A stretch of 59,349 nt of DNA, taken from contig CAIVSG010000072.1 of assembly GCA_903908555.1 (NCBI GenBank), forward strand, positions 1 to 59,349. The letters are read 5' to 3'. Below, piece by piece: positions 4,135 to 50,705 of the stretch. Below the pieces are notes generated by a model that worked only from the letters and a program-made list of their open reading frames with translations, was not told the origin of the DNA and did no database searches. The DNA is from an uncultured Chlorobiaceae bacterium (GTDB lineage Bacteria; Bacteroidota; Chlorobiia; Chlorobiales; Chlorobiaceae). Every line of letters begins with the position of its first letter. Position 1 is the first letter of the stretch. The translations under genes were made by a program, and so were the position numbers.

Positions 4135-4200
4135 CTGATTTCTAATATGCGATACGCAATATGCAGTGTAAGCGCGAGTTGCGTAAAGCAGGTTTTTGTC
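4135..4200. promoter_or_regulatory. Degenerate copy of the dispersed CTGATTTATGGTATGCAATA element
   Basis: This gap (3831-4293) contains CTGATTTCTAATATGCGATA followed by CGCAATATGC and then GTAAGCGCGAG. It resembles, with several changes, the much better conserved elements at 8275, 13613 and 22349. It sits about 140 nt upstream of the sensor kinase start. Function is unknown; nothing else was seen in the gap. Confidence 0.4.
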
Positions 4201-8103: not shown

Positions 8104-8274
8104 GGGGGGCATATTCAATGCTCGTCCCGCTCCAGGGACATGAAGATGGCGTACCAGTCTGTTACTGCTCATCTCTTTGCCTGATGTATCCCGTGTTGTG
8201 ACAACTGACTATAAAACACCCCTTCAAATCTTATGTGTCTCCCGAAAGACTAAACCATTCGAGTTTACATATAG

Positions 8275-8335
8275 CTGATTTATGGTATGCAATATGCCGT
8301 ATACACGGGATTTGTGTAGATCAATTTATTGCTAA
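8275..8335 (+). promoter_or_regulatory. Dispersed regulatory element, copy b
   Basis: CTGATTTATGGTATGCAATA is followed by TGCCGTATACACGGGATTT and an AATTTATTG tail. The core GGTAT-N5-ATGCC is an imperfect palindrome (8284-8298). Near-identical copies occur at 13613 and 22349 and looser ones at 45321 and 44699. It lies about 150 nt before the cysteine-rich leader peptide. Role (promoter, operator or start of a structured RNA) is unknown. Confidence 0.65.
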
Positions 8336-8432: not shown

Positions 8433-8516
8433 ATGCTCTCAAATTATATATCAGATGGATCCTGTTGTCGTCATTTAAAGACAAGAATAGACAAAAAAGT
8501 TTTTGCGCTGCAATAG
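8433..8516 (+). CDS. Candidate leader peptide A with Cys-Cys (27 aa)
   Basis: A 27-codon ORF whose N-terminal part is MLSNYISDGSCCRHLKTR, with two adjacent TGT codons at 8463-8468 and a TAG stop at 8514. The stop abuts a hairpin (8517-8536), and an intrinsic terminator (8546-8579) follows before the flavoprotein gene. The layout matches leaders B, C and D, though this one has CC rather than CCCC. A competing short ORF starting at GTG 8422 has a better-placed GGAGG (8407-8411), so which frame is translated is open. Confidence 0.5.
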   Translation: MLSNYISDGSCCRHLKTRIDKKVFALQ

Positions 8517-8536: not shown

Positions 8537-8545
8537 TTTATAAAG

Positions 8546-8579
8546 AAGCCGATTCTTGCTGTCAAAGGATCGGCTTTTT
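8546..8579 (+). terminator. Intrinsic terminator/attenuator A
   Basis: AAGCCGATTCTT pairs with AAGGATCGGCTT (one G-U), followed by a short T run, 50 nt before the structural gene. The 5' arm segment ATTCTTG (8552-8558) can instead pair perfectly with CAAGAAT (8482-8488) inside the leader ORF, a candidate antiterminator. Confidence 0.8.
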
Positions 8580-13570: not shown

Positions 13571-13612
13571 TGACAAAGTCTTCATTTCTTCACAAATCTT
13601 TTTAAGTCCTAA

Positions 13613-13674
13613 CTGATTTATGGTATGCAATATGCCGTTTAAATGGGATTTATAAAGTTTAATTTATTGTCGAT
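13613..13674 (+). promoter_or_regulatory. Dispersed regulatory element, copy c
   Basis: CTGATTTATGGTATGCAATA then TGCCGTTTAAATGGGATTT, nearly identical to copy b. The imperfect palindrome GGTATGCAATATGCC is at 13622-13636. It lies 268 nt before the ATG of leader B, in an AT-rich 570-bp gap. Confidence 0.65.
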
Positions 13675-13889: not shown

Positions 13890-13964
13890 ATGTCCAATAT
13901 TCAGTGTTGTTGTTGTTTAGAAAAATATTTTTATTTAAGAATTTTGCGATATTATAATACTTGA
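13890..13964 (+). CDS. Cysteine leader peptide B (24 aa, CCCC)
   Basis: ATG to TGA, 24 codons beginning MSNIQCCCCLEKYFYLR. Four TGT codons in a row occupy 13905-13916. Its pattern M-x-N-[IL]-x-CCCC-L-[EK] is shared with leader C. The stop overlaps a hairpin (13959-13978) and a terminator (13988-14023) follows 53 nt before the radical SAM gene. There is no strong Shine-Dalgarno sequence (CAAGTAAC precedes ATG). A role as a ribosome-stalling cysteine sensor is inferred. Confidence 0.7.
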   Translation: MSNIQCCCCLEKYFYLRILRYYNT

Positions 13965-13978
13965 AGAGATTTTTCGAG
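13959..13978 (+). promoter_or_regulatory. Hairpin 1 after leader B
   Basis: ACTTGAA pairs with TTCGAGT (one G-U) and contains the leader TGA stop, so a terminating ribosome would melt it. Equivalent hairpins follow leaders A and C. Confidence 0.6.
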
Positions 13979-13987
13979 TTTATAATT

Positions 13988-14023
13988 AAGCTAATTCTTA
14001 TTCTCAGAGAATTGGCTTTTTTG
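13988..14023 (+). terminator. Intrinsic terminator/attenuator B
   Basis: AGCTAATTCT pairs with AGAATTGGCT followed by six T. AATTCTTA in its 5' arm and loop (13993-14000) is perfectly complementary over 8 nt to TAAGAATT (13936-13943) within the leader ORF, 19 nt after the last Cys codon, giving a mutually exclusive structure. Confidence 0.8.
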
Positions 14024-14076
14024 TTTTTAATAATTAAGTCAAAGAAGTAATTAAAAAGATTATAGGAGATCAAGCT

Positions 14077-15339
14077 ATGTCCCTTGCTTTAAAACAAACA
14101 TATGAAAGAGAACTTTCTTTTGATGAAGTTGTTGCTAAATACCCTGAAGTTCCCCGTTTAATTATTGTCAAAATCGATGTTCAGCGTCGTGGCGTTCATT
14201 ACACTGATACGGCTCTTAGTGTTGTTGATCCTAAGATTCATCTTGTCAGAGATACTGGTACTCGTGAACTTTTTGGCGGAAGAGCTCAGGAAAAAAAGTC
14301 ATTACCAATCTCTCTTTTATTAAGGGATGGTACCTCAGTTATTACCAGTCCTACTCCACTCGAACAAAATCCTTATTTGGTTGATCTTGTTAATGGGCGG
14401 TTAGCATTGGTGGACAATGATGAAGTGATCGAGTATGTCGAATTGTGGAGAAGACCTCGCTACTACGATCTTAAAACCTCCTCTGGTATTCCGATGAGCC
14501 ATGTCCTGAGTGCACGGCCGCAGCGACTGAGCCTCACCCTGTCGAATTATTGCCATTTCTGGACGAAAAATCAAGGATGTCTTTATTGCGACAGCAATAG
14601 GGATAGCAAGCAGCTAAAAAAAGAGATTGGCATTCCTCGTGTCAAACCGCAAGACATTTCAGAAACCGTTCGAGAGGCACTGAAAGAGCCCGGGCGGTTT
14701 TCAACATTCTGTATTACAAGTGGCTCTATCCTTGCTGGCAATGAGCTCTTTGATAAAGAGGTTGATACCTACATTGAAGCACTGCAGGCGATAGGTGAGA
14801 ACTTTAAGACAAAAAAATTTCCCAGCCAAATGGTTGCTACAGCTTTTAACGAAAAGCAGTTGCAGCGACTTTATGACGAGACTGGAATTATGAGTTATAC
14901 CAGTGACCTTGAAGTGCTTAATGAAGAGAGATTCTCATGGATTTGCCCTGGAAAGGCTGAGAATGTTGGATATCAGGGTTGGAAACAGCGGGTAATTAGA
15001 GCGTTAGATATTTTCGGCAGGGGAAATGTTTCGAGTGGTTTTGTTGGAGGAGTGGAGCTAGCAAAACCTTATGGATTTATTCGTGAGGACGAAGCACTTC
15101 GTTCGACCCTCGAAGAGGCTGAATCGCTCGCAGAAAGTGGAGTTCCGGCCTTTTTTGTTGTTTGGGTTCCTCGTGCAGGATCTCCTTTTCATGACCAGCA
15201 AAGTCCTTCTCTTGATTATTTCGTACAGCTGGCGTCAGGTCTTCATCAGTTGAGGGTCAAGTATGGGTTGACCGTTGATTTTGATGACTATAGGCGTTGC
15301 GGGAATCATCCGGATACAGATTTATCCCGACTTCTATAA
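14077..15339 (+). CDS. Radical SAM protein with C-x8-C-x2-C motif
   Basis: 420 residues, first gene after attenuator B, with TAGGAGAT before the ATG. The probable cluster site is NYCHFWTKNQGCLYCDS: Cys159, 168 and 171, a C-x8-C-x2-C spacing rather than the canonical C-x3-C-x2-C. About 155 residues precede it and form a separate N-terminal domain; a C-terminal SAM barrel follows. I do not recognise a named family. The neighbours are a split-barrel flavoprotein and activase/HgdB-like proteins, suggesting a shared reductive pathway, perhaps C-S or C-C bond chemistry. Confidence 0.75.
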   Translation: MSLALKQTYERELSFDEVVAKYPEVPRLIIVKIDVQRRGVHYTDTALSVVDPKIHLVRDTGTRELFGGRAQEKKSLPISLLLRDGTSVITSPTPLEQNPYLVDLVNGRLALVDNDEVIEYVELWRRPRYYDLKTSSGIPMSHVLSARPQRLSLTLSNYCHFWTKNQGCLYCDSNRDSKQLKKEIGIPRVKPQDISETVREALKEPGRFSTFCITSGSILAGNELFDKEVDTYIEALQAIGENFKTKKFPSQMVATAFNEKQLQRLYDETGIMSYTSDLEVLNEERFSWICPGKAENVGYQGWKQRVIRALDIFGRGNVSSGFVGGVELAKPYGFIREDEALRSTLEEAESLAESGVPAFFVVWVPRAGSPFHDQQSPSLDYFVQLASGLHQLRVKYGLTVDFDDYRRCGNHPDTDLSRLL

Positions 15340-15414: not shown

Positions 15415-15882
15415 ATGCCTATTCAATTATCACAGGAAGTAGTTTCACTTATAAATGACAAAGGAGCTTTTAAAGCACTCGCTACTGTCGATGAATCCGG
15501 GACTCCAAACGTTGTACAAAACGACTCCATTTACGTTGCAGAAAATGGAAATATCCATTATCTCGAGTTGCTCGAAACTTCCCGAACCAATCACAACCTA
15601 GTCAGGGCAATATGGTTTGACCGTAAAGTCTCAATTGTTGTCAGCGGAGCAGATCAAAAAAGTTTTCAGATTAAAGGGAAGGCAATTGAGGTGCACATAA
15701 CAGGTCCTCTTTACGAGAAACATTATGTCGAAATTCGCCAAAGACTCGGTGATGTTGATTTGTCAGGGGTGTGGGTAATCCAGCCAGAAGAGGTAATTGA
15801 TGAAAATTTCACTAATCGAAAAAATGAAGAGGAAACAAAACGACCTTTTTTCAGGCACTTGGATCGTTTAGCTAAAGTTTAA
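15415..15882 (+). CDS. Pyridoxamine 5'-phosphate oxidase-like split-barrel flavoprotein
   Basis: 155 residues. The first half (FKALATVDESGTPNVVQNDS, then a strand pair and a TSRTNHNL segment) fits the FMN-binding split barrel. AAGGGA lies before the ATG. It is 75 bp after the radical SAM gene and 112 bp before the activase, in one strand and probably one transcript. It may supply a flavin-dependent reduction or electron input to the activase system; this is inferred from position only. It is only distantly like the protein at 8628. Confidence 0.75.
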   Translation: MPIQLSQEVVSLINDKGAFKALATVDESGTPNVVQNDSIYVAENGNIHYLELLETSRTNHNLVRAIWFDRKVSIVVSGADQKSFQIKGKAIEVHITGPLYEKHYVEIRQRLGDVDLSGVWVIQPEEVIDENFTNRKNEEETKRPFFRHLDRLAKV

Positions 15883-15994: not shown

Positions 15995-16864
15995 ATGCAC
16001 AAAAATAAAATCCTGGCCGATGAGAAGGTTTCCGATCTGCTGCCAACCACAGTGATAGGTATTGACATCGGCTCACGTCAGGCAAAGGCGATTCTGGTTC
16101 ATGGCGACGAAATACATACGACAATCACGGCAAGCGGCGTTGATTCACAGGAAACCGCTGAGCGACTTATCAGAAAAGTTGTCAGGCAGACCGGAATTGG
16201 GCTCAAGGATATTGCCTATGTCGTCGGTACAGGTTACGGTCGTATTTCGCTTGAGTTTGATTCATTCCCGTCTGAAGTAGTAACCGAAATTTCATGTCAT
16301 GCAATGGGTGCTCATTTCCTTAATGCCGGCACCAGGACTATTATCGACATCGGTGGACAGGATTCAAAAGCCATCAAGGTCGATCCCGATAATGGCAGGG
16401 TAGTTGAATTTGTGATGAACGATAAGTGTGCTGCCGGTACAGGGCGCTTCCTAGAAAAGGTTGCTGAGTTGCTTGATTACAAACTCGAAGAGCTAGGGGA
16501 AAAAGCGTTGCTGGCACAAAAAAAACTTGAGGTTAGCAGCCAGTGTGTTGTATTTGCTGAGTCTGAAATCATTTCCCTTAAGGTCAAAGGCGAGCGACGC
16601 GAGGATATTGCTGCAGCAGTTCATTTTGCCTCTGCCCGACGCGTACGTAATCTGGTTAATCGTCTGGGATTGGAACCCGAACTCGTTTTTTCGGGGGGTG
16701 TAGCTAACAACCAGGGAATGCAGAAGGCTCTTGAAGAATTGATCGGCCATCCGTTTAAAGCCACAAAGCTCGATATGGTTTATGCAGGTGCATTAGGTGC
16801 CGCAGTGTTTGCCCAGCGTTATTATGAAGGTGTAAATTCCACATCAGAAAAGGAGGTCGCATGA
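15995..16864 (+). CDS. BadF/BcrA/HgdC-type ATPase (2-hydroxyacyl-CoA dehydratase activase)
   Basis: 289 residues of the ASKHA-fold activator family, which hydrolyses ATP to push one low-potential electron from a [4Fe-4S] cluster onto a partner enzyme. The sequence shows GIDIGSRQAKAILV (phosphate 1), TIIDIGGQDSKAI (phosphate 2) and two cluster cysteines in NDKCAAGTGRFLE (Cys145) and SSQCVVFAESE (Cys184); the cluster bridges a homodimer. Its 3' end overlaps the next gene by 4 bp. The next gene's N-terminal half is a close paralogue of it. Confidence 0.93.
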   Translation: MHKNKILADEKVSDLLPTTVIGIDIGSRQAKAILVHGDEIHTTITASGVDSQETAERLIRKVVRQTGIGLKDIAYVVGTGYGRISLEFDSFPSEVVTEISCHAMGAHFLNAGTRTIIDIGGQDSKAIKVDPDNGRVVEFVMNDKCAAGTGRFLEKVAELLDYKLEELGEKALLAQKKLEVSSQCVVFAESEIISLKVKGERREDIAAAVHFASARRVRNLVNRLGLEPELVFSGGVANNQGMQKALEELIGHPFKATKLDMVYAGALGAAVFAQRYYEGVNSTSEKEVA

Positions 16865-22254: not shown

Positions 22255-22348
22255 AATAATCGATTTGAGCTAAAATCCAATACTTTCCTGTAGCTGAAGT
22301 ATCGGTGACTGGGACGTATGAACAGACGACAAAGTGATATGGTATAAC

Positions 22349-22410
22349 CTATTTATGGTACACAATATGCCATGTAAAAGGGATTTGCAAATCGCTATTT
22401 ATTGTTGATT
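22349..22410 (+). promoter_or_regulatory. Dispersed regulatory element, copy d
   Basis: CCTATTTATGGTACACAATA then TGCCATGTAAAAGGGATTTG and CTATTTATTGTTGATTTTAA; core GGTACACAATATGCC at 22357-22371. It lies 271 nt upstream of leader C, the same distance as copy c from leader B. The 554-bp gap has no larger gene. Confidence 0.65.
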
Positions 22411-22627: not shown

Positions 22628-22693
22628 ATGCTAAATCTCTCTTGTTGTTGTTGCTTAAAATATCATTATAGGAAAGTGTTTGTGCGAATGTAA
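22628..22693 (+). CDS. Cysteine leader peptide C (21 aa, CCCC)
   Basis: ATG to TAA, 21 codons beginning MLNLSCCCCLKYHYRK; the Cys codons are TGT TGT TGT TGC at 22643-22654. It is clearly related to leader B in its first 11 residues. The stop lies 2 nt before a perfect hairpin and 30 nt before a terminator that precedes the porin/ABC importer unit. No strong ribosome-binding site is seen. Confidence 0.7.
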   Translation: MLNLSCCCCLKYHYRKVFVRM

Positions 22694-22713: not shown

Positions 22714-22722
22714 TAGAATAAG

Positions 22723-22758
22723 AAGCCGATTCTTTCTGTTAAAGATTCGGCTTTTTTT
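22723..22758 (+). terminator. Intrinsic terminator/attenuator C
   Basis: AGCCGATTCTTT pairs with AAAGATTCGGCT (one mismatch) followed by seven T, nearly the same sequence as attenuator A. CTTTCT (22732-22737) in the 5' arm can pair with GGAAAG (22671-22676) in the leader ORF, a weaker antiterminator than in A and B. Confidence 0.85.
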
Positions 22759-22814
22759 ATATCTGCAAATAATCAAATTAGAATATCTATTAATTATAAA
22801 TATCAGGAATGAGG

Positions 22815-24194
22815 ATGAGTAAAATAAAGTTTACAGTTCTTCTGCTTGGAAGTTTGTTGATTGGCAATGCGAATCTGCAGGCTGCTGCAAAGACGTCAAA
22901 ACATGTTTCTACGGAACGGAAAACCGAAGCAGAAGTAGTTGAGAAGGAGCCTGCGCCGGCGATCGAGACAACTGACGATGACAAGCTTGTAACACAAAGG
23001 GAGCTCCAGGGGTTAAATTCAGAAGTTGCACTTCTTAGAGATCAATTGACCCGGCAACTTGATCGGAATATCGCCAATAGTGCAAGGTCACTGACAATTA
23101 GCGGGATTCTCCAGAATCGTTATACAGGAGTGACATCCTCAAATGTGCCGCAAGCGTCTAATGGTTTTTCATTTGGGAGTGCCGCGGTTGTTTCATTTAG
23201 TGGCGCATTAAAGAAAGACTACGACGAAGGTCGTAATCTGACCTATGTGTTTTCGCTTAATGGTGCTATAGCACCATATAACGTGCAGCCCAATGATGTT
23301 TATTTGCAGTACTCGATTTTTCAGTCTCTTGACCCAGAAAAATCCACGTTGAATTTCGTGTTCGGACAACAGAAAAAACCCTTTGGACTTGAGCCTCAGG
23401 TAGGTGAAGACAAAACACCGGCCGCAAATACTGCAATTTTTGCTGGAGGAAGCGGTCTTAATCTTGCCGCGCGTGATTTTGGTATTCAGTTTAAAGGAGA
23501 TTTTTTCCCCGCCTATGACGCAGGATACAATTATCGAGTTCCGTTCATAGAATATGCTGTTGGGTTGTATAACGGATCGGGTGCAAATGCGACGGATACA
23601 AACAAAAGCAAGGATGTTGTCGCCAGGATAGCTCTCAATGCTCCTGTAGACTACAGTTCTGATTTCCGTGGTTTAACGTTCGGAAGTTCTATTTATACCG
23701 GTAAAAAGGATCTTGCTTTGAATAATGGAGGGACTCTTATTACTGGCGGTGGTGGTAGCGCTTCAAGAGTTCGCTATGGTCAGGATATCTCCTATGTAAG
23801 CTCTCCAATTGGATTTACGGCGGAATATGCTGTTGGAAGAGATGAGTCAGCTCTTTCAGGAACAACTATTGCTAATGCAGTAAAGTCGACAACGGAAAGT
23901 CGGGGTTATACGCTGACACTGTTCTATCAGTGGGGTGAACAGTTTTTGAAGCTGGCTCGCAATGAGGATCGTTTGGACGATTGGTGGCCAAAAACCTACC
24001 AGCCGTTTATTCGAATTGATCATTGGGATCCTAATACAGCTATTTCCGGAAACGAGACATCTATAGTTACGTATGGATTTAACTTGTTCTTTGCGCAAAC
24101 GACGAAACTGCAATTGAACTATAACGTGAGCAATATAAGAGCAACCAATACAAAGGCGAATCAATTCATTGCGCAATTCCAATTTGGATTTTAA
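22815..24194 (+). CDS. Outer-membrane porin (phosphate-selective porin O/P-like)
   Basis: 459 residues from ATG 22815, favoured because AGGA lies 7 nt before it; ATG 22809 is also possible. A signal peptide (KIKFTVLLLGSLLIGNANLQAAA) is followed by a charged region and a short coiled coil (LQGLNSEVALLRDQLTRQLD, typical of trimeric porins), then a beta-barrel ending in an aromatic residue (FIAQFQFGF). FGQQKKPFGLEPQ resembles the O/P porin family. First gene after attenuator C, so it likely admits the substrate of the ABC importers downstream. Confidence 0.82.
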   Translation: MSKIKFTVLLLGSLLIGNANLQAAAKTSKHVSTERKTEAEVVEKEPAPAIETTDDDKLVTQRELQGLNSEVALLRDQLTRQLDRNIANSARSLTISGILQNRYTGVTSSNVPQASNGFSFGSAAVVSFSGALKKDYDEGRNLTYVFSLNGAIAPYNVQPNDVYLQYSIFQSLDPEKSTLNFVFGQQKKPFGLEPQVGEDKTPAANTAIFAGGSGLNLAARDFGIQFKGDFFPAYDAGYNYRVPFIEYAVGLYNGSGANATDTNKSKDVVARIALNAPVDYSSDFRGLTFGSSIYTGKKDLALNNGGTLITGGGGSASRVRYGQDISYVSSPIGFTAEYAVGRDESALSGTTIANAVKSTTESRGYTLTLFYQWGEQFLKLARNEDRLDDWWPKTYQPFIRIDHWDPNTAISGNETSIVTYGFNLFFAQTTKLQLNYNVSNIRATNTKANQFIAQFQFGF

Positions 24195-35903: not shown

Positions 35904-37723
35904 GCAGTCAGCATAATACTGTTCGAGATCGCCCTAAATCTATGGGGTTTGGGGGGCCTGCAATACCCGGCAGAATAGAAAAACCCCGGAACTCTGCCAT
36001 GGCAGTTAATCGATTGCTTGAATACCTCTCACCGTTCAGGTTCAGGCTTTGGGTAGTCTTTTTTTTGGTAGTATTCTATTCAATGCTTGGACTTGCCGGC
36101 CCATACCTCATGGGTGTTGCCATTGAACGTTTCATTGGTCAAAAAAATGTCAGCGGGCTTGAAATAATATCACTTACCCTGCTGTTGGTCTATCTCTCCT
36201 ATAACCTGTTTCAACTTATTGCGGGTTGGATTATAGCCAAGGTCTCTCAAACAGCCCTGAAACAATTGAGTGGCGATCTTTTCAGACATATCCAAACGTT
36301 GCCCGTCAGTTATTTTGACCGTAATCCGGCGGGCGGCCTGATGAGCAGGCTTACCAACGATGTTGATGCCATCAATCAGGCCGTTTCTCAGAACGTCACA
36401 ACTATGCTGGCCAGTGTACTTTCACTGGCGGGTATTATTGTCGCCATGTTTTTACTTGATGCATGGCTTGCTATGACCTCATTACTGGTTATTCCGCTGA
36501 TGCTCTGGTTTACTCAGTTTGTTGCCCGTTATACACGCAAAGGCTTCAGGGAGTTACAGAAACAGCTTGGAGACCTGAACGCTGTCATGGAAGAGTCGAT
36601 CAGTGGGCTTAAGGTCATAAAGGTATTCAGACGTAATGCCGAGGTGATTGAGACGTTCAGAAATCATAATAATGATGTTTTCAAAGCGGCGGTCTATGCG
36701 AACAACTATGCTATGATTCTCATGCCATTGACTAACGTCCTTGGTAATCTTTTTGTCATAGTTATTGCTGCTTTTGGAGGCTGGATAGCCTTGAAAGGGT
36801 TGGTTACGGTTGGTGTCATTGCCAGTTTTATTATGTACGGCCAGAACTTTATCCAGCCACTTCGCCAGCTTGCCACTATGTACAACACCATTCAGTCTGC
36901 ACTGGCAGGAAGCGAAAGAATATTTGAAATTCTTGATATTCCGTCAGAAGTTGATTTATCAGATGAAACAGGAGCATCGACTATTTCAGGGACTGTCAGT
37001 TTCGATCATGTTACGTTTGCTTATGAGAAAAATTTTCCTGTAGTGAAAGATATGACATTCAATGCTGATCCAGGTAAAACAATTGCCTTGGTTGGCCCGA
37101 CAGGGGCAGGAAAAACAACGATCATCAATCTTCTGACCCGTTTTTATGAGATAAGCAGTGGTGTTATCACTATAGCAGGAAAAGATATTCGCGATTACAG
37201 CAAAGCTGATTTGCGTCGGAAGATTGGTTTAGTGTTGCAGGATACGTTTTTATTTTCCGGAACCGTGCTTGAAAATATTCGTTTTGGTCGACTTGATGCA
37301 ACAGATTCAGAATGTCATCATGCAGCAAAACTTGCCGAAGCAGATGAGTTTATCCGCCAGCTTCCTGAGGGGTACAATACCATCCTGTCGGAACGGGCTG
37401 GCAATTTGAGCCAGGGGCAGCGTCAGTTGCTTGCCATAACCAGAGTTATTCTTGCAAACCCTGAGATCTTGATTCTCGACGAAGCCACCAGCAGTGTCGA
37501 TACCAGAACCGAGCTTCGTATACAGAAAGCGTTATTGACACTGATGAAGGGACGGACAAGCTTTGTTATCGCTCATCGGCTCAGTACCATTCGTGAAGCT
37601 GATCAAGTGTTGGTTATCGACAAAGGAACCATAGCTGAAAAGGGAACACATCAGGAGCTTCTTGATCAAGAGGGGATTTATTATGATCTCTACATGAGCC
37701 AGTTCAAAGGGTTGGCAATTTAG
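35900..37723 (+). CDS. ABC exporter half-transporter, canonical Walker B partner
   Basis: 607 residues. An N-terminal extension (~40 residues, Gly/Pro-rich, MGFGGPAIPGRI) precedes the six-helix domain. NBD: Walker A GPTGAGKTT, variant signature LSQGQRQL, Walker B ILILDEATSSVD. With the upstream subunit it makes an asymmetric heterodimer. Its last 7 codons are part of a 60-bp sequence repeated after the restriction enzyme gene at 42980. Confidence 0.92.
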   Translation: MSSQHNTVRDRPKSMGFGGPAIPGRIEKPRNSAMAVNRLLEYLSPFRFRLWVVFFLVVFYSMLGLAGPYLMGVAIERFIGQKNVSGLEIISLTLLLVYLSYNLFQLIAGWIIAKVSQTALKQLSGDLFRHIQTLPVSYFDRNPAGGLMSRLTNDVDAINQAVSQNVTTMLASVLSLAGIIVAMFLLDAWLAMTSLLVIPLMLWFTQFVARYTRKGFRELQKQLGDLNAVMEESISGLKVIKVFRRNAEVIETFRNHNNDVFKAAVYANNYAMILMPLTNVLGNLFVIVIAAFGGWIALKGLVTVGVIASFIMYGQNFIQPLRQLATMYNTIQSALAGSERIFEILDIPSEVDLSDETGASTISGTVSFDHVTFAYEKNFPVVKDMTFNADPGKTIALVGPTGAGKTTIINLLTRFYEISSGVITIAGKDIRDYSKADLRRKIGLVLQDTFLFSGTVLENIRFGRLDATDSECHHAAKLAEADEFIRQLPEGYNTILSERAGNLSQGQRQLLAITRVILANPEILILDEATSSVDTRTELRIQKALLTLMKGRTSFVIAHRLSTIREADQVLVIDKGTIAEKGTHQELLDQEGIYYDLYMSQFKGLAI

Positions 37724-37762
37724 GTTTATGCTCTATCCTTTTTCCATCAACCACCGATTAAA
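37703..37762 (+). repeat. 60-bp direct repeat, left copy
   Basis: Starts TTCAAAGGGTTGGCAATTTA and spans the last codons and stop of the ABC exporter gene plus 39 bp downstream. The right copy at 42980-43039 differs at 5 of 60 positions. The copies flank the restriction-modification gene. Confidence 0.9.
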
Positions 37763-38098: not shown

Positions 38099-41000
38099 AT
38101 GTCTTTTCAGACCATCCTGACGAAATACAGAAAGTATTCATTCTCTGAACGCGACAAAGGTGACCGCTTTGAAAGGTTGATGCAGGCCTACTTGAAAACC
38201 GATCCAAAGTATGCGTACTTATTCAAAAAGGTGTGGTTATGGAATGAATTCCCCGGACGTGGTGATTTAGGTGGCGGGGATACCGGGATAGATTTGGTTG
38301 CTTTGACATTAGATGGCGACTATTGGGCAATTCAGTGCAAATGTTTTCATGAAAGGGCTACTATAGACAAACCAGCCGTTGACTCTTTCCTTTCAACGTC
38401 AAGCAGGGAGTTCAAGGATGAAAACCTGCAAACCACAACATTCTCGCAGCGACTCTGGATTTCAACGACCAATAAATGGGGGCCGAATGCAACAGAGGCT
38501 ATAAAAAACCAGAGCCCACCCGTTGCCCGCCTTAACCTCTATGAACTGCAAGAATCCGCAGTTGATTGGAAAAAATTAGATGAGGGCATTTACGGCGAAG
38601 CATCACGAACACCAAAAAAAATACTTAGGCCCCATCAGAACGAAGCTTTAGAAAAAGCTCACGAATATTTCAAAACAGCAGACAGAGGCAAGCTCATCAT
38701 GGCTTGCGGAACAGGCAAAACATTCAACTCCCTGCGCATTGCTGAGCATGAAACCAATGGGAAAGGCCTTATCCTGTTTCTGGTTCCCTCCATTGCCTTG
38801 CTTGGACAGACACTGCGAGAATGGTCCTCCGATGCCAACGAACCGATAAATGCTATTTGTATCTGCTCCGACAGTGAAGTGTCTCGCAAAAAAAGCAAGA
38901 ACGAAGATAGTGACTCATTCAGCATCGTGGATTTGGCATTACCTGCATCCACTGATGTCCGCTCAATTTTCCGCCAGTTCAAGCAAATACAAGCCAATGG
39001 ACATTCCGGCTTGACTGTCGTCTTCTCGACCTACCAATCTATTGCGGTGATTGCTCGTGCACAAGCTGAACTGCAGAAATCAAACGACAGCTATGGTGAA
39101 TTTGATCTGATCATTTGCGATGAAGCTCATCGAACCACAGGCGTGACCTTGTCAGGAGAGGATGAATCTGCATTCACAAAAGTGCACGACAACAATTTTC
39201 TCAAAGGTAAAAAGCGGCTCTATATGACCGCAACGCCAAGGCTTTACAATGAGGATACCAAAAGCAAAGCATCACAAGCCGATGCCATTCTTTGCTCAAT
39301 GGATGATGCCAGGTTATTTGGTGAAGAAATCTACCGCATTGGTTTTGGCGAGGCGGTAGAACGGGATCTGCTCAGTGATTACAAAGTGCTCATTCTGACG
39401 TTGAATGAAAATGATGTTCCACCGGCGGTACAGAAAATGATAACCGATAACGAAAGCGAAATCAATACCGATGATGCGTCCAAACTTATTGGTTGCATCA
39501 ATGCACTTTCAAAACAAATACTCGGTGATGCAGGTATTATCAAAGGCAGTGATCCGGAACCGATGAAACGGGCAGTCGCCTTTTGCCAAAGCATTGCTGT
39601 GTCAAAAAAAATAACCGCCACCTACAACACAGCTTCCGAAGCTTACCTCAATTCATTGCCTGAAAAAAGCCAGGAGCATATGGTCTCCCTCTCTTCCAGG
39701 CATATTGACGGCACCATGACTGCTCCCCACCGAGATGAATTACTGTCCTGGTTGAAGGCTGATACTGATTACAATGAGTGCCGCGTTCTCACCAATGTGA
39801 GGTGTTTAAGCGAAGGGGTAGATGTTCCCTCATTGGATGCGGTCATGTTCCTCTCTGCCCGCAACTCACAGGTGGATGTGGTTCAGTCTGTTGGGCGTGT
39901 TATGCGAAAAGCACCGGGTAAAAAATACGGCTACATTATCATTCCGGTCGTTGTTCCTTCTGATGTAGAAGCTGACAAAGCTCTTGACGATAACGAACGC
40001 TACAAAGTGGTCTGGACAGTCTTAAACGCTCTCAGAGCTCACGACGACCGATTCAATGCCACGGTCAATAAAATAGAACTCAACCGCAAACGTCCTGAAC
40101 AGATTTTGGTAGGCAGACCGGCCTATTCATGGGAAGATGGGCAGCAAGTTATTGAAGACCCCGGGGTGGCTTATGGAACAGACAAAGACATCAGCCAACA
40201 GCTTGCCTTGCAATTTGAACAATTGCAGCATGTTGTCTTTGCGCGTATGGTGCAAAAGGTTGGTGACCGTCGCTATTGGGAACAATGGGCTAACAATGTT
40301 GCCGAAATCGCTCAACGACAAGTCGAAAGAATTAATCGCCTTATTAACGCCGACGGGGAACACCAAAAGGCATTTCAGGAGTTTTTGACAGGTTTACAGA
40401 ACAACATCAACCCCTCCATCACCCAGCAGGAATCGGTTGAAATGTTGTCGCAGCACATCATCACCAAACCGGTCTTTGAAGCGCTTTTTAAGGGGTACTC
40501 ATTTGTTCAGAACAATCCCATATCGGTCTCCATGCAGAAAATGCTCGACCTGCTGGAAGCCCAGACCATCCAGGAGGATGCCGACACCCTGAACAAATTC
40601 TATGAATCAGTACGAATGCGTGCCGCAGATATCGACAACGCTGCTGGCAAACAACGCATCATTATTGAGCTGTACGACAAGTTCTTTAAAACGGCTTTTC
40701 CAAAAATGGTGGAAAAGCTTGGGATAGTTTACACTCCAGTCGAAGTAGTTGATTTCATCATCCACTCAGTCAACGACCTGCTCAAAACAGAGTTTGACCG
40801 CACCCTTGCCGATGAAAACGTACACATTCTCGACCCCTTCACCGGCACAGGTACCTTCATCACTCGCCTTCTGCAAAGCGGTTTGATCGGGCAGAATGAT
40901 CTTGAACGCAAATACCAGAAAGAGATACATGCTAACGAGATTGTGCTGCTTGCCTACTACATAGCAGCGGTCAATATCGAGAATGCCTTTCACGACATAA

Positions 41001-42976
41001 CGGGCGACGCCACATCCTACAAAGCCTTCGAAGGGATATGCTTGACCGATACCTTCCAGCTCGGTGAGACCGATGACAGCGCAGTACTTTTTTCAGATAT
41101 GTTCCCGCAAAACTCCGAACGAGTATCTGCGCAGAAGAAAACTCCACTGCGTGTCATTATCGGTAACCCGCCTTACTCCGTAGGACAGAAATCAGCCAAT
41201 GATAATGCACAGAACCAGAGTTATGCAAAGCTTGATAGACGGATTGCTGCCACCTATGCCGCAGCATCAAATGCAACTTTACAGAACTCCTTGTATGACT
41301 CCTACATCAAGGCATTCCGCTGGTCAACCGACCGACTTGATCCGGAGAATGGTGGTATTATCGCTTTTGTCTCAAACGGCGCTTGGCTTGACAGTAATAG
41401 TACTGACGGATTACGTCAATGTCTTCAAAAAGAGTTTACAAGCATATGGGTCTTCAATTTGAGAGGGAACCAACGCACAAGTGGAGAACTTTCTAAAAAA
41501 GAAGGAGGGAAGATATTTGGCTCCGGTTCCCGTACTCCCATTGCCATTACCCTGCTGGTGAAAAACCCTGACAAACCCTCAGGCAAAGCCATCATTCACT
41601 ATCTCGATATCGGCGAATACCACAACCGAGAGGAGAAGCTCGCAATCATCAGTAAATACAGTTCAGTTGGAAAACCTGACATGCCTTGGCAGACTTTGTT
41701 GCCCAATGAACACGGGGATTGGTTGAATCCGCGTAATAAACTGTTTGAGACATTTATCTCCTTGGGAGATAAAAATGATAAATCAAATAAAAGGACTTTT
41801 TTTTGGCCTTACTATTCAAATGGCGTCAAAACAAACAGAGATGCCTGGGTTTATGGCTACAACAATGAAGTTTTACAAAAAAATATTAATACAACAATAT
41901 CTTTTTATAATCAACAAACCCAATTATATCACGAATATAAAACGAACCACAAAGATTCATCAATTGAAAATTTTATCGCTTATGACAATCTCAAAATCAC
42001 TTGGACTAGAGAGATTAAAGGAAATGCTGAAAGGGGGTTAATACATTCATTTAATAAAGAAGATATTGTTAAAGCAATTTACCGACCATTTACTAAACAA
42101 TTTCTTTATTTTAACAAATATTGGAACAACTGCGTTTATCTAATACCAAAATTATTCCCAACACCAGACGTTAAAAATCTTGTCATCTCTCTTTCTGGAG
42201 TAGGATCAAACAAGGACTTCTCTACACTTATTACAGATTGTATTCCTGATTTACAGCTTCAATTTAATGGTCAATGCTTCCCCCTCTACTACTTCGAAGA
42301 GCGCCAGAAATCAAGCCCGACACTTTTTGATGCAGGCACAGAAAATGAGTTTATCCGCAGAGATGGCGTTTCAGACTTCATACTCGAAAGAGCACAGAAG
42401 ATGTACGGCAATCGCGTCACAAAGGAAGATATCTTCTACTACGTCTACGGCATACTTCACAGCCCTGAATACCGCATCCGCTTTTCCAACGACCTTAAAA
42501 AGATGCTCCCCCGCATCCCGCTTGTCGATGAACCTCGGGAATTTTGGTCATTCAGCAAAGCCGGTAGGGAACTGGCAGAACTGCACATCAACTATGAATC
42601 AGTGCCACCTTATGAAGGTGTAACGGTCACTGGTACTGAGAAAGGGCTTTTCAATGTCGATAAAATGCGCTTCCCGAAGAAAGGCCAGAAGGATACTATC
42701 CTTTATAACGGCTACATCACCATAACAGACATCCCTGACAAAGCGTACGAATACGTTGTGAACGGTAAAAGTGCCATAGAATGGGTCTTGGAGCGCTATC
42801 AGATCAGCACCCATAAAGAGAGCGGGATAACCAATGACCCTAACGACTGGGCCAAGGAGGTGGGTAATCCTCGCTACATCCTCGACCTGCTCCTGAGTGT
42901 GATCAATGTGAGCTTGAAAACGGTAGCGATTGTTGAAGAGTTGCCGGAGTTGATGTTCGAAGCCCCCACGGCTTAG
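38099..42976 (+). CDS. Type ISP-like single-chain restriction-modification enzyme
   Basis: 1625 residues, close to the ~1570-1620 of LlaGI/LlaBIII-type enzymes. In order: an Mrr-like nuclease (GDTGIDLVALT...WAIQCKCF, ~60-82), a superfamily 2 helicase/translocase with Walker A ACGTGKTF (~203), DEAH (~340) and MTATPRL (~375), a coupler, an N6-adenine methyltransferase with DPFTGTGTF (~912) and NPPYSVGQ (~1023), and a C-terminal target-recognition region. One chain both methylates and cuts DNA. The segment coding residues ~1215-1390 is much richer in A+T than the rest. The whole gene lies between 60-bp direct repeats, a sign of insertion. The start has a weak ribosome-binding site. Confidence 0.93.
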   Translation: MSFQTILTKYRKYSFSERDKGDRFERLMQAYLKTDPKYAYLFKKVWLWNEFPGRGDLGGGDTGIDLVALTLDGDYWAIQCKCFHERATIDKPAVDSFLSTSSREFKDENLQTTTFSQRLWISTTNKWGPNATEAIKNQSPPVARLNLYELQESAVDWKKLDEGIYGEASRTPKKILRPHQNEALEKAHEYFKTADRGKLIMACGTGKTFNSLRIAEHETNGKGLILFLVPSIALLGQTLREWSSDANEPINAICICSDSEVSRKKSKNEDSDSFSIVDLALPASTDVRSIFRQFKQIQANGHSGLTVVFSTYQSIAVIARAQAELQKSNDSYGEFDLIICDEAHRTTGVTLSGEDESAFTKVHDNNFLKGKKRLYMTATPRLYNEDTKSKASQADAILCSMDDARLFGEEIYRIGFGEAVERDLLSDYKVLILTLNENDVPPAVQKMITDNESEINTDDASKLIGCINALSKQILGDAGIIKGSDPEPMKRAVAFCQSIAVSKKITATYNTASEAYLNSLPEKSQEHMVSLSSRHIDGTMTAPHRDELLSWLKADTDYNECRVLTNVRCLSEGVDVPSLDAVMFLSARNSQVDVVQSVGRVMRKAPGKKYGYIIIPVVVPSDVEADKALDDNERYKVVWTVLNALRAHDDRFNATVNKIELNRKRPEQILVGRPAYSWEDGQQVIEDPGVAYGTDKDISQQLALQFEQLQHVVFARMVQKVGDRRYWEQWANNVAEIAQRQVERINRLINADGEHQKAFQEFLTGLQNNINPSITQQESVEMLSQHIITKPVFEALFKGYSFVQNNPISVSMQKMLDLLEAQTIQEDADTLNKFYESVRMRAADIDNAAGKQRIIIELYDKFFKTAFPKMVEKLGIVYTPVEVVDFIIHSVNDLLKTEFDRTLADENVHILDPFTGTGTFITRLLQSGLIGQNDLERKYQKEIHANEIVLLAYYIAAVNIENAFHDITGDATSYKAFEGICLTDTFQLGETDDSAVLFSDMFPQNSERVSAQKKTPLRVIIGNPPYSVGQKSANDNAQNQSYAKLDRRIAATYAAASNATLQNSLYDSYIKAFRWSTDRLDPENGGIIAFVSNGAWLDSNSTDGLRQCLQKEFTSIWVFNLRGNQRTSGELSKKEGGKIFGSGSRTPIAITLLVKNPDKPSGKAIIHYLDIGEYHNREEKLAIISKYSSVGKPDMPWQTLLPNEHGDWLNPRNKLFETFISLGDKNDKSNKRTFFWPYYSNGVKTNRDAWVYGYNNEVLQKNINTTISFYNQQTQLYHEYKTNHKDSSIENFIAYDNLKITWTREIKGNAERGLIHSFNKEDIVKAIYRPFTKQFLYFNKYWNNCVYLIPKLFPTPDVKNLVISLSGVGSNKDFSTLITDCIPDLQLQFNGQCFPLYYFEERQKSSPTLFDAGTENEFIRRDGVSDFILERAQKMYGNRVTKEDIFYYVYGILHSPEYRIRFSNDLKKMLPRIPLVDEPREFWSFSKAGRELAELHINYESVPPYEGVTVTGTEKGLFNVDKMRFPKKGQKDTILYNGYITITDIPDKAYEYVVNGKSAIEWVLERYQISTHKESGITNDPNDWAKEVGNPRYILDLLLSVINVSLKTVAIVEELPELMFEAPTA

Positions 42977-42979
42977 CGT

Positions 42980-43039
42980 TTCAAAGGGTTGGCAATTTAG
43001 GTTTATGCTCCATCCTTTTTCTATCAACCACTGGATAAA
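42980..43039 (+). repeat. 60-bp direct repeat, right copy
   Basis: Begins 3 nt after the restriction enzyme stop and ends 2 nt before the EamA-like ATG. It repeats the 3' end and downstream flank of the ABC exporter gene, including its stop codon, with 5 mismatches out of 60. Confidence 0.9.
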
Positions 43040-48908: not shown

Positions 48909-49013
48909 ATGAATGCTCAAGACTTATTCAATAAAGGACTTTTCAGCACGTCATCATGCTGTTGTTGTCTCTTTGTGGATGCTGATATATCGGATCCCGG
49001 ATTAATGACATAG
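48909..49013 (+). CDS. Cysteine leader peptide D (34 aa, CCCC)
   Basis: ATG to TAG, 34 codons beginning MNAQDLFNKGLFSTSSCCCC and continuing LFVDADISD. The Cys codons are TGC TGT TGT TGT at 48957-48968. It is longer and otherwise unlike leaders B and C, but has the same order: Cys run, stop codon, hairpin, terminator, structural gene. Confidence 0.65.
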   Translation: MNAQDLFNKGLFSTSSCCCCLFVDADISDPGLMT

Positions 49014-49042: not shown

Positions 49043-49077
49043 AAAGCCGGCTTTCAATATTAGAGCCGGCTTTTTTT
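49043..49077 (+). terminator. Intrinsic terminator/attenuator D
   Basis: AAAGCCGGCT pairs with AGCCGGCTTT followed by a T run, 65 bp upstream of the porin ATG. No convincing antiterminator pairing was found here. Confidence 0.85.
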
Positions 49078-49141
49078 ATGAAATTTTTTTCCTGAACACA
49101 TAACACACTACACTACAACCAATAAAAAGGAGTACAGTAAA

Positions 49142-50239
49142 ATGAAAAAGATGTTTTCACTAGCTGCGATGTTCGCAGTTCTCTCATACGCATCACCGGC
49201 TTCGGCTGAAGTAACGCTCAATGGTGAAGTTGGTTTGCGTCTTAGAAACGATTTCGGTAATTCGACAACAACTGCCGGTGCCAGAACAGTGACCGAAGAC
49301 CAGTATTTCCAGTACCGTGTTCGTCTGAAACCTTCAGCTGATCTTGGCGAAGGCTACTTTGTTAAGGCATTGTTTCAGGACGAAGGTGTTGCTGGAGCCT
49401 GGCGTGGTTTAGGGACTACCGGGGCAACTGCTAACAACACGGAACAATATTCGATAACGGCCTCGCAGTTTTACTTTGGACATGGCGATGCATGCAGCCA
49501 TTGGGTTGCCGGTCGTATTCCGCTCGGTAGTTTTGACAACCCTATTCTGGATCTGACTCTTTATGCAATTCCAGGTACCGGCCCTCAAGGAACAAAACTC
49601 TATGCGGTTGATACTCCGATTTCCACAAATCATTTTGACCGTCTATTGGGTTTTAATTATGGCACAAAGATCGGTGACGGTGATTTTAATGCTGTTGTTG
49701 TTAATTTTGACAACGTTTCGACAACCACTGCCGATAAAGGGCTTTTAAACGACGGGTACGGTTTCACTGCTAACTATAAGACCAATATTGGTGATGTAAC
49801 TATTGTTCCACAGGGCTTTATAACCTTGACTCATCTTGCCGATGGTCGTTCTCCTTACTCCTTTGGTACTCAGGCCTTCATTCCTGCAGGGAAATCCAAA
49901 GTTTCTCTCAGCGGATTCTATACCGGAGACAGTAATACCATTCCGAAGACGACGACAAAGATTGATTATAGCGGTTATATCTTCAGGGTTAAAGGTGAAT
50001 CCGGTCCGGTTCTTGCCTGGATAGATTACAACAGAACCAAAGACAATGCAGGCGCTACTACGTACAACAATACCTTTGTCTGGGCGCAGTATCTCATTAA
50101 GGTGCAGGACTCAAATAAAGGAACCTTCTCCCTGCAGCCGACAATCAGGTACCGTGCCTCTGGTTCAAAGACCGATGCAGGTCTCTCAACATCGAACGAT
50201 CTGTTCCGTGGAGAGCTCTACGCAACGGTAAGCTTCTAA
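49142..50239 (+). CDS. Outer-membrane porin
   Basis: 365 residues, with AAAAAGGAGT before the ATG. Signal peptide MKKMFSLAAMFAVLSYASPASAE has a clean Ala-x-Ala site. The mature part alternates polar and hydrophobic residues (EVTLNGEVGLRLRNDF, DQYFQYRVRLKPSADL, WVAGRIPLG) and ends in an aromatic residue (RGELYATVSF), as for a beta-barrel porin. Set behind leader D, so its level should follow cysteine supply if the attenuation model holds. Confidence 0.85.
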   Translation: MKKMFSLAAMFAVLSYASPASAEVTLNGEVGLRLRNDFGNSTTTAGARTVTEDQYFQYRVRLKPSADLGEGYFVKALFQDEGVAGAWRGLGTTGATANNTEQYSITASQFYFGHGDACSHWVAGRIPLGSFDNPILDLTLYAIPGTGPQGTKLYAVDTPISTNHFDRLLGFNYGTKIGDGDFNAVVVNFDNVSTTTADKGLLNDGYGFTANYKTNIGDVTIVPQGFITLTHLADGRSPYSFGTQAFIPAGKSKVSLSGFYTGDSNTIPKTTTKIDYSGYIFRVKGESGPVLAWIDYNRTKDNAGATTYNNTFVWAQYLIKVQDSNKGTFSLQPTIRYRASGSKTDAGLSTSNDLFRGELYATVSF

Positions 50240-50252
50240 CGTTTCTCTCCGG

Positions 50253-50336
50253 CATCCGGGCAGCAGTTGTAAAGTCATGTGGGGGCTTTACGGGTGTGTG
50301 TGCATCTTGTTATTAGTGCTGTCCGGATGTTTTTTT
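50253..50336 (+). terminator. Long-loop terminator-like unit 1
   Basis: CATCCGGGCAGC pairs with GCTGTCCGGATG (one G-U) and is followed by seven T. The enclosed ~53 nt hold an inner hairpin GTAAAG/CTTTAC with a G-rich loop. It lies after the porin and directly before the first tRNA. Confidence 0.7.
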
Positions 50337-50338
50337 AT

Positions 50339-50413
50339 GGCGATATGGCTGAGTGGTCTAAGCCAAGGGTCTCTAAAAACTCTGTATCACAAGTTCGAAT
50401 CTTGTTATCGCCT
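50339..50413 (+). tRNA. tRNA-Cys-like gene with CUA anticodon in an 8-nt loop
   Basis: Full cloverleaf: acceptor GGCGATA/TATCGCC, D-stem GGC/GCC with GG in the D-loop, anticodon stem AGGGT/ACTCT, T-arm ACAAG-TTCGAAT-CTTGT, U at position 73, no encoded CCA. The anticodon loop is CTCTAAAA (50371-50378), one base longer than normal, and would present CUA (50373-50375), complementary to UAG, or the quadruplet CUAA. It is a tandem duplicate of the tRNA-Cys downstream. It could be a UAG-reading or frameshifting tRNA, or a degenerate copy. Confidence 0.7.
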
Positions 50414-50446
50414 CAGTTTTTTCAGTATGCCGAAGTGTTTCTCCGG

Positions 50447-50530
50447 CATCCGGGCATCTGTTGTGAAGTCATGTGGGGACTCAAGGGTGTGTGTGTGCAT
50501 CTTATCTTCAGGGCTGCCCGGATGTTTTTT
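50447..50530 (+). terminator. Long-loop terminator-like unit 2
   Basis: CATCCGGGCA pairs perfectly with TGCCCGGATG, followed by six T. It is the second copy of unit 1, with a changed base pair in the stem (G-U to G-C), lying between the two tRNA genes. Confidence 0.7.
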
Positions 50531-50531
50531 A

Positions 50532-50605
50532 GGCGATGTGGGTGAGTGGTCTAAGCCAAGGGTCTGCAAAACTCTTTTTCACAAGTTCGAATCTTGTCAT
50601 CGCCT
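50532..50605 (+). tRNA. tRNA-Cys (GCA)
   Basis: 74 nt. Acceptor GGCGATG/CATCGCC, D-stem GGT/GCC, anticodon stem AGGGT/ACTCT with a normal 7-nt loop CTGCAAA and GCA anticodon at 50566-50568, T-arm ACAAG-TTCGAAT-CTTGT and U73, a cysteine identity base. CCA is not encoded. It would read both UGU and UGC, the codons repeated in the four leaders of this window. Confidence 0.92.
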
Positions 50606-50637
50606 CAGTATTGTTTGTCCAGTTATCTTCCTCCGCA

Positions 50638-50705
50638 CATCCGGGCTGCTGATAAAAAATGTTGTCGGGTGCATTTTTCTTCAGCGCTGTCCGGATGTTT
50701 TTTTT
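50638..50705 (+). terminator. Long-loop terminator-like unit 3
   Basis: CATCCGGGCTGC pairs with GCGCTGTCCGGATG (one G-U, one mismatch), eight T follow. An inner AAAAATG/CATTTTT hairpin is present. Third copy of the unit; it follows tRNA-Cys and meets the convergent DUF4405 gene. Confidence 0.7.

Follow-up and report, generated by a model that had tools for sequence, protein, structure and literature searches.

A predicted family of cysteine-codon transcription attenuators upstream of sulfur-acquisition genes in Chlorobiaceae

Results and Discussion

A cysteine-codon leader with two predicted, exclusive folds

Leader B in the window, the 59,349-nt stretch of Chlorobiaceae DNA analysed here, is very probably a ribosome-mediated transcription attenuator responding to the supply of charged tRNA-Cys. 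The model is built on its elements and their positions, covariation, state-dependent folds and the sulfur-gene context, from which we infer stalling, termination and a cysteine response. When Cys-tRNA is scarce, the ribosome would stall on the TGT codons at 13905-13916 and leave the RNA from about position 13930 free, allowing strand a to pair around a separate hairpin, X, with the 5' arm and loop of the nascent terminator (strand d). This a:d pairing would block the terminator and permit transcription of the radical SAM/double-cubane operon. With ample Cys-tRNA, the ribosome would proceed to the stop codon at 13962, where its footprint would include the last part of strand a as well as the 5' arm of hairpin X; the terminator (13988-14018) would then halt transcription. 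Leaders A, C and D would act as equivalent switches on other sulfur operons. Because the RNA following the Cys codons can adopt two exclusive folds, expression of the downstream genes is probably confined to cysteine shortage.

The elements of the four window leaders are listed in Table 1. The leader B ORF carries no Shine-Dalgarno sequence and its stop codon falls within the 5' arm of hairpin X, which forms the tip of the antiterminator in one state and stands separately ahead of the terminator in the other. The original prediction had identified TAAGAATT (13936-13943) and AATTCTTA (13993-14000) as perfectly complementary, and both strings and coordinates are exact, as is the start of TAAGAATT 19 nt past the last TGT codon. 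AATTCTTA spans the end of the terminator 5' arm plus the first loop base and has TAAGAATT as its reverse complement. As to the shape of the antiterminator, the competing strand is real in B, but the helix is longer than the 8-nt match, interrupted, and encloses hairpin X.

For the other leaders, the picture was partly redrawn. The pairing proposed for leader A, CAAGAAT (8482-8488) with ATTCTTG (8552-8558), is exact and perfect over 7 nt, yet it was rejected as the functional strand since the stalled fold and the family register both favour 8490-8508, which probably fills this role. The shorter GGAAAG/CTTTCT match described for leader C is present (22671-22676). Leader D had been reported to contain no match, but it does have a predicted antiterminator, 48983-49000 with 49047-49062, and so is no exception; its a:d duplex, at -14.4 kcal/mol, is the strongest among the four window leaders. 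In dinucleotide shuffles of the post-Cys segment, the 8-nt longest perfect match of leader B is equalled in 8.7% and the 7-nt match of leader A in 10.3%, so that neither is significant alone and the proof has to be comparative.

Table 1. Coordinates of leader elements and associated genes in the window
Leader	Feature	Position	Strand	Details	Basis
A	Leader peptide A	8433..8516	+	MLSNYISDGSCCRHLKTRIDKKVFALQ, stop; Cys codons 8463-8468	
A	Antiterminator strand a (putative), family register	8490..8508	+	GACA...AAG...GC; partner 8547-8563	Stalled-state MFE
A	Terminator A	8545..8579	+		
B	Leader peptide B	13890..13964	+	MSNIQCCCCLEKYFYLRILRYYNT, stop; ATG 13890, stop TGA 13962-13964	Sequence, translation
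B	Four consecutive Cys control codons (TGT)	13905..13916	+		
B	Antiterminator strand a (putative)	13936..13947	+	TAAGAATT core 13936-13943 plus GC 13946-13947	Stalled-state MFE
B	Hairpin X	13951..13986	+	Core 13959-13979	Fold plus independent covariation signal
B	Intrinsic terminator B	13988..14028	+	12-bp stem (13988-14018), 7-nt loop 14000-14006, T-rich tail	
B	Strand d	13990..14000	+	Terminator 5' arm/loop segment pairing with strand a; includes AATTCTTA 13993-14000	
B	First gene, variant radical SAM protein (NF045502)	14077..15339	+		
C	Leader peptide C	22628..22693	+	MLNLSCCCCLKYHYRKVFVRM, stop; Cys codons 22643-22654	
C	Antiterminator strand a (putative)	22667..22685	+	GGAAAG 22671-22676; partner 22725-22741	Stalled-state MFE
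C	Terminator C	22720..22758	+	Ahead of porin-like gene 22809-24194 and sulfonate-type ABC cluster	
D	Leader peptide D	48909..49013	+	MNAQDLFNKGLFSTSSCCCCLFVDADISDPGLMT, stop; Cys codons 48957-48968	
D	Antiterminator strand a (putative)	48983..49000	+	TGATAT..GGA..CCGG; partner 49047-49062	Stalled-state MFE
D	Terminator D	49043..49080	+		
D	tRNA-Cys (GCA)	50532..50606	+	Final gene behind leader D and porin 49142-50239	

Size and anatomy of the leader family

The GTDB genus of the window, within the Chlorobiaceae, was examined across 65 species, the window genome itself being 81% complete. The covariance model R1, built from leaders of relatives, identifies 116 leaders with Cys codons, distributed over 30 of the 65 genomes at up to about nine per genome, and none in 21 sister-genus genomes or in 12 genomes from the remainder of the class. 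R1 is not exhaustive, as leaders of the DUF4395 class are present in genomes that it missed. A script searching for a Cys-run ORF with a terminator places a leader before 24 of the 25 orthologous DUF4395 loci of the genus, compared with 1 of 23 such loci in the sister genus.

Runs of two to seven Cys codons occur at the matching position in 103 of 107 leaders, and both Cys codons are in use (162 TGT, 31 TGC). An intrinsic terminator, recognized as a fold with a T-tract, lies between the leader ORF and the first gene in 107 of the 116 matches. In the 103 parsed leaders, which share the start/Cys/stop spacing of leader B, the last Cys codon has a median position of -92 from the terminator loop centre, and the stop codon falls at -56 to -38 in 82 of them. 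In 19 of the 103, the stop comes early, shortly past the Cys codons, so that a ribosome terminating there would leave strand a uncovered. Shine-Dalgarno sequences are nearly absent from the leader ORFs, a 4-mer of the motif being found in 5 of 62. The leader ORFs, including those starting at window positions 8433, 13890, 22628 and 48909, often open with GTTATG, while AGGA-like sites precede the four window genes downstream of them. The near absence of Shine-Dalgarno sequences is compatible with leaderless initiation of the leader ORFs, which is possible.

Covariation between the antiterminator and the terminator

The duplex test compares how strongly each post-Cys region pairs with the 5' arm and loop of its own terminator and with those of other leaders. 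Among 71 non-redundant leaders, own a:d duplexes average -10.3 versus -9.0 kcal/mol for swapped partners, with none of 20,000 permutations as good, and the difference persists when partners are exchanged only between leaders that precede the same gene (-10.67 own versus -9.37, 0 of 20,000). With sliding 16-nt windows in 65 leaders less than 70% identical, double-centred to correct for composition, the own-versus-cross signal peaks sharply at -76 to -57 from the loop centre, with z = -6.1 at -72 to -57, and a reversed-arm control gives nothing stronger than -2.8. The TAAGAATT strand of leader B sits at -67 to -60, inside this family peak. In an unbiased map of all segment pairs, the signals are confined to the terminator (z -9.2), hairpin X (-5.0), the a:d antiterminator (-4.8) and the a:d continuation (-3.8).

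A fixed-column covariation count for the a:d helix alone is marginal, as 34 of 500 shuffles score as high, which reflects differences in pairing register from leader to leader; the count is nevertheless above that of every slid register. A mutual-information map on the covariance-model alignment suffered from too much noise (effective number about 56) and gave a:d no high rank; it was therefore replaced by the register-free duplex tests. Comparative sequence evidence, with the fixed-column count only marginal, supports a predicted antiterminator that is exclusive with the terminator. The original prediction had named covariation among orthologous leaders as its check, and the register-free test on 65 diverged leaders provides it.

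Folds predicted for different ribosome positions

Partition functions were calculated for 103 leaders with ribosome-covered RNA masked and the RNA ended at the terminator loop. When the ribosome is stalled on the last Cys codon, a mean of 12.6 a:d pairs is expected, compared with 1.3 for a ribosome at the stop codon and 7.7 for ribosome-free RNA. With strand a shuffled, the stalled value is 7.7 instead of 12.3 (SD of set means 0.56). All four window leaders are predicted to form, in the stalled state, a single long interrupted hairpin tipped by X; once the ribosome is at the stop codon, the terminator alone is predicted to remain. In silico, the position of the ribosome would decide between the two folds, in agreement with the proposal that a ribosome held on the TGT codons frees the strand behind them. 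The register-free covariation and the state-dependent folding together support the predicted competition of this strand with the terminator in leader B. With the full terminator present, a:d pairing drops to 2.7 expected pairs and the terminator is favoured at equilibrium, suggesting that antitermination must be kinetic, with the antiterminator forming first.

Leaders with short ORFs may depart from this arrangement. It is possible, though rather unlikely, that these keep cysteine sensing but use the run of Cys codons itself as a sequestering strand 1. The TGYTGY of the run resembles the terminator loop TTGCTGTC and would pair with strand a whenever the run is not occupied by a stalled ribosome. 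In the 19 early-stop leaders folded ribosome-free, strand a pairs mostly with -110 to -80, the Cys run, in about five pairs, and the expected ribosome-free a:d pairs number 3.6 versus 8.6 in late-stop leaders. The own-versus-cross signal for pairing of strand a with the Cys run is, however, weak (z -2.6), and ribosome-free leader B leaves strand a unsequestered, with 12.0 a:d pairs. A sequestering Cys run would supplement the main model and is no alternative for leader B.

It is very improbable that the leader RNA is instead bound by a protein, a tRNA (as in a T-box) or a metabolite (as in a riboswitch), with the Cys ORF being incidental. The terminator loop (CTGTCA) and hairpin X are strongly conserved in sequence, as would suit a bound RNA, but loop conservation is accounted for by pairing with strand a, in-frame Cys runs are near universal, both Cys codons are used and the spacing suits a ribosome. 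Rfam matches above threshold in the window are to tRNA only, with none relevant in ten leader loci.

There is likewise little to recommend chance complementarity in AT-rich sequence as the source of the 8-nt match in leader B. The frequency with which shuffles attain 8 nt, and the finding that the stalled-state pairing of B alone is equalled by 4 of 20 shuffles, speak for chance; the match nevertheless shares the position and register of the family strand and shows compensatory differences, UAAGAAUU/AAUUCUUA in B versus the consensus CUGACAUCAA/UUGCUGUCAG. Very improbable, too, are functional Cys-rich (e.g., metal-binding) micropeptides followed by ordinary terminators, as the peptides, though in frame with runs of 2-7 Cys, differ between classes outside the run, strand a is kept in early-stop leaders where it is no longer translated, and the covariation of strand a with the terminator would be left unexplained.

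Relation to known attenuators

Enterobacterial attenuators of the trp/his type comprise a short leader ORF with tandem codons for the regulating amino acid and an antiterminator that competes with an intrinsic terminator. The mechanism of ribosome-mediated transcription attenuation has been described (PMC1183508). The Chlorobiaceae leaders resemble this type in their tandem codons, in the competing antiterminator and terminator, and in a stop codon placed for the terminating ribosome to block the antiterminator. They differ in having Cys codons, sulfur-acquisition targets and a host in the green sulfur bacterial phylum, in an antiterminator that encloses a separate conserved hairpin, in ORFs mostly without a Shine-Dalgarno sequence and in the lack, in most leaders, of a strong 1:2 anti-antiterminator.

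The closest parallels in codon use are found elsewhere. The uORFC-8-2 motif upstream of cysS in Rhodobacterales likewise combines a tandem-Cys uORF with an intrinsic terminator, and has been proposed to sense Cys-tRNA (PMC8632094). As published, it occurs in alphaproteobacteria and only before cysS, with two stems and two Cys codons inside the first, whereas the Chlorobiaceae leaders precede many operons per genome and show antiterminator strand covariation; phylum, genes and structure set the two apart. Leader ORFs with runs of Cys codons ahead of cysteine genes are also known from Actinobacteria, in which no conserved terminator hairpin was found behind the polycysteine ORFs (PMC1262725). 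Those of mycobacteria are reported to be cysteine-responsive attenuators (Canestrari et al. 2020, cited in PMC13236596), are described as acting by translation attenuation (PMC13236596) and have a leaderless start. The Chlorobiaceae leaders fall outside the mycobacterial type, in which no terminator follows the Cys ORF, as terminators are present. The cysteine T-box of Firmicutes binds tRNA directly and has no leader ORF. It too senses tRNA-Cys charging through terminator/antiterminator switching, but no T-box match was obtained from Rfam in the window or the ten leader loci; at both gathering and permissive thresholds, Rfam 15 returned tRNAs plus unrelated sub-threshold matches only. The literature searched contains no description of Cys-codon leaders in Chlorobi. 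The kind of mechanism is known, and the Chlorobiaceae Cys-leader family appears to be undescribed, which would make it a seemingly new, large family of predicted cysteine-responsive attenuators in green sulfur bacteria.

Genes behind the leaders

The window genes fit sulfur acquisition and include SsuA-type binding proteins and permeases, a sulfate-binding protein, the radical SAM protein and the CoA-dehydratase activase and double-cubane reductases. Behind leader B, the radical SAM gene, whose top non-self relatives are from uncultured Chlorobiaceae (88% and 70% identity), is followed by a gene at 15415-15882, the CoA-dehydratase activase at 15995-16864 and double-cubane/HGD-D reductases up to 21647. 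Across the genus, first genes behind leaders include those for porin-like, radical SAM, NifH-like, arylsulfotransferase-like and DUF4395 proteins, double-cubane reductase activases and sulfonate-type ABC components. The best PDB match of the NifH-like (MarH-like) protein is the methylthio-alkane reductase complex 9FMG, ahead by 30 orders of magnitude. In the two genomes read further, DUF4395 heads a gene run of tRNA-Cys, O-acetylhomoserine sulfhydrylase (metY), a LuxR-type regulator, cysK and cysE, and in several genomes a leader, porin and tRNA-Cys lie ahead of sulfite reductase, cysH, cysD and cysN. Genes for synthesis or import of the sensed amino acid (cysK, cysE, metY, cysHDN, sulfite reductase, sulfonate uptake) are thus found downstream.

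PAPS reductase is encoded in 27 of 30 genomes with R1 leaders versus 19 of 35 without (p = 0.002), and an SsuA-like protein in 24 of 30 versus 2 of 35 (p = 4e-10); given the leaders overlooked by R1 and the non-independence of species, both associations are descriptive. Assimilatory sulfate reduction has been documented in photoferrotrophic Chlorobi (PMC5498476). The predicted regulon would link cysteine synthesis with both assimilatory sulfate reduction and organosulfur scavenging, as fits Chlorobia living on sulfate or organic sulfur and not on sulfide, by an RNA mechanism that is testable.

tRNA-Cys genes within the putatively controlled operons

Two leader classes are associated with tRNA-Cys. 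Of the 15 loci in the leader-D class, 12 have a tRNA-Cys (GCA) gene about 100 nt past the porin, and a contig end cuts two of the remaining three. In the DUF4395 class, it follows the gene by about 14-42 nt in 9 of 11 R1 matches. In the other leader classes, no tRNA-Cys was found within the sequence examined behind the leader. The tRNA-Cys is next behind the first protein gene in both the porin and DUF4395 classes (window 49142-50606; locus L141, 254-988; locus L281, 498-1236). As a canonical tRNA-Cys is encoded elsewhere in the window genome, the operon tRNA-Cys genes are additional. The chances are about even that a genus-wide Chlorobium cysteine attenuation regulon exists in which several controlled operons carry such additional genes. 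A Cys-tRNA-sensing switch over tRNA-Cys genes would also control the synthesis of non-canonical tRNA-Cys species, raising the question of whether the cell may regulate a tRNA through the codons that this tRNA reads.

Each leader-D operon tRNA is preceded, at a distance of 2-4 nt, by the end of a strong, repeated hairpin element with a T-tract that is conserved in 12 loci and is a candidate terminator or further regulatory RNA; its position makes co-transcription uncertain there. The element, CATCCGGGCA...TGCCCGGATGTTTTTT, is about 80 nt long, folds with -31 to -39 kcal/mol and occurs in the window at 50253-50336, 50447-50530 and 50636-50705. No such hairpin was seen before the tRNA in the DUF4395 class.

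Beside the tRNA-Cys of leader D, positions 50339-50414 encode a tRNA with a CUA anticodon and a tRNA-Cys-like body. Relatives carry at this place either a normal tRNA-Cys or a version with odd anticodons (caaa, aaa, caca), suggesting that the CUA tRNA is probably a degenerating duplicate, and a role in reading the TAG stops of many leaders was rejected because of this variability. The DUF4395-operon tRNA-Cys of L141 (254-330) has the discriminator G in place of the usual U and an unusual variable loop, and its charging by CysRS is doubtful.

Additional sequence elements in the window

A shared 60-nt box (ATTTATGGTATGCAATATGCCG...) is present at 8272-8331, 13610-13669 and 22345-22404, with weaker copies at 4139 and 45317. 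It lies 155-277 nt upstream of the starts of leaders A, B and C and occurs genome-wide only there and at one weak site. A part in the attenuator was rejected, since its distance and near restriction to A, B and C point to what is probably a distinct element at the promoter level, which may be a regulator site or a duplicated promoter. A 60-nt direct repeat (92% identical; 37703-37762 and 42980-43039) flanks a 1625-aa helicase/methyltransferase-like ORF (38099-42976), which, given this repeat, looks as if it were an insertion. At the contig end, positions 1-105 consist of a tandem repeat of the heptamer AACTGCC.
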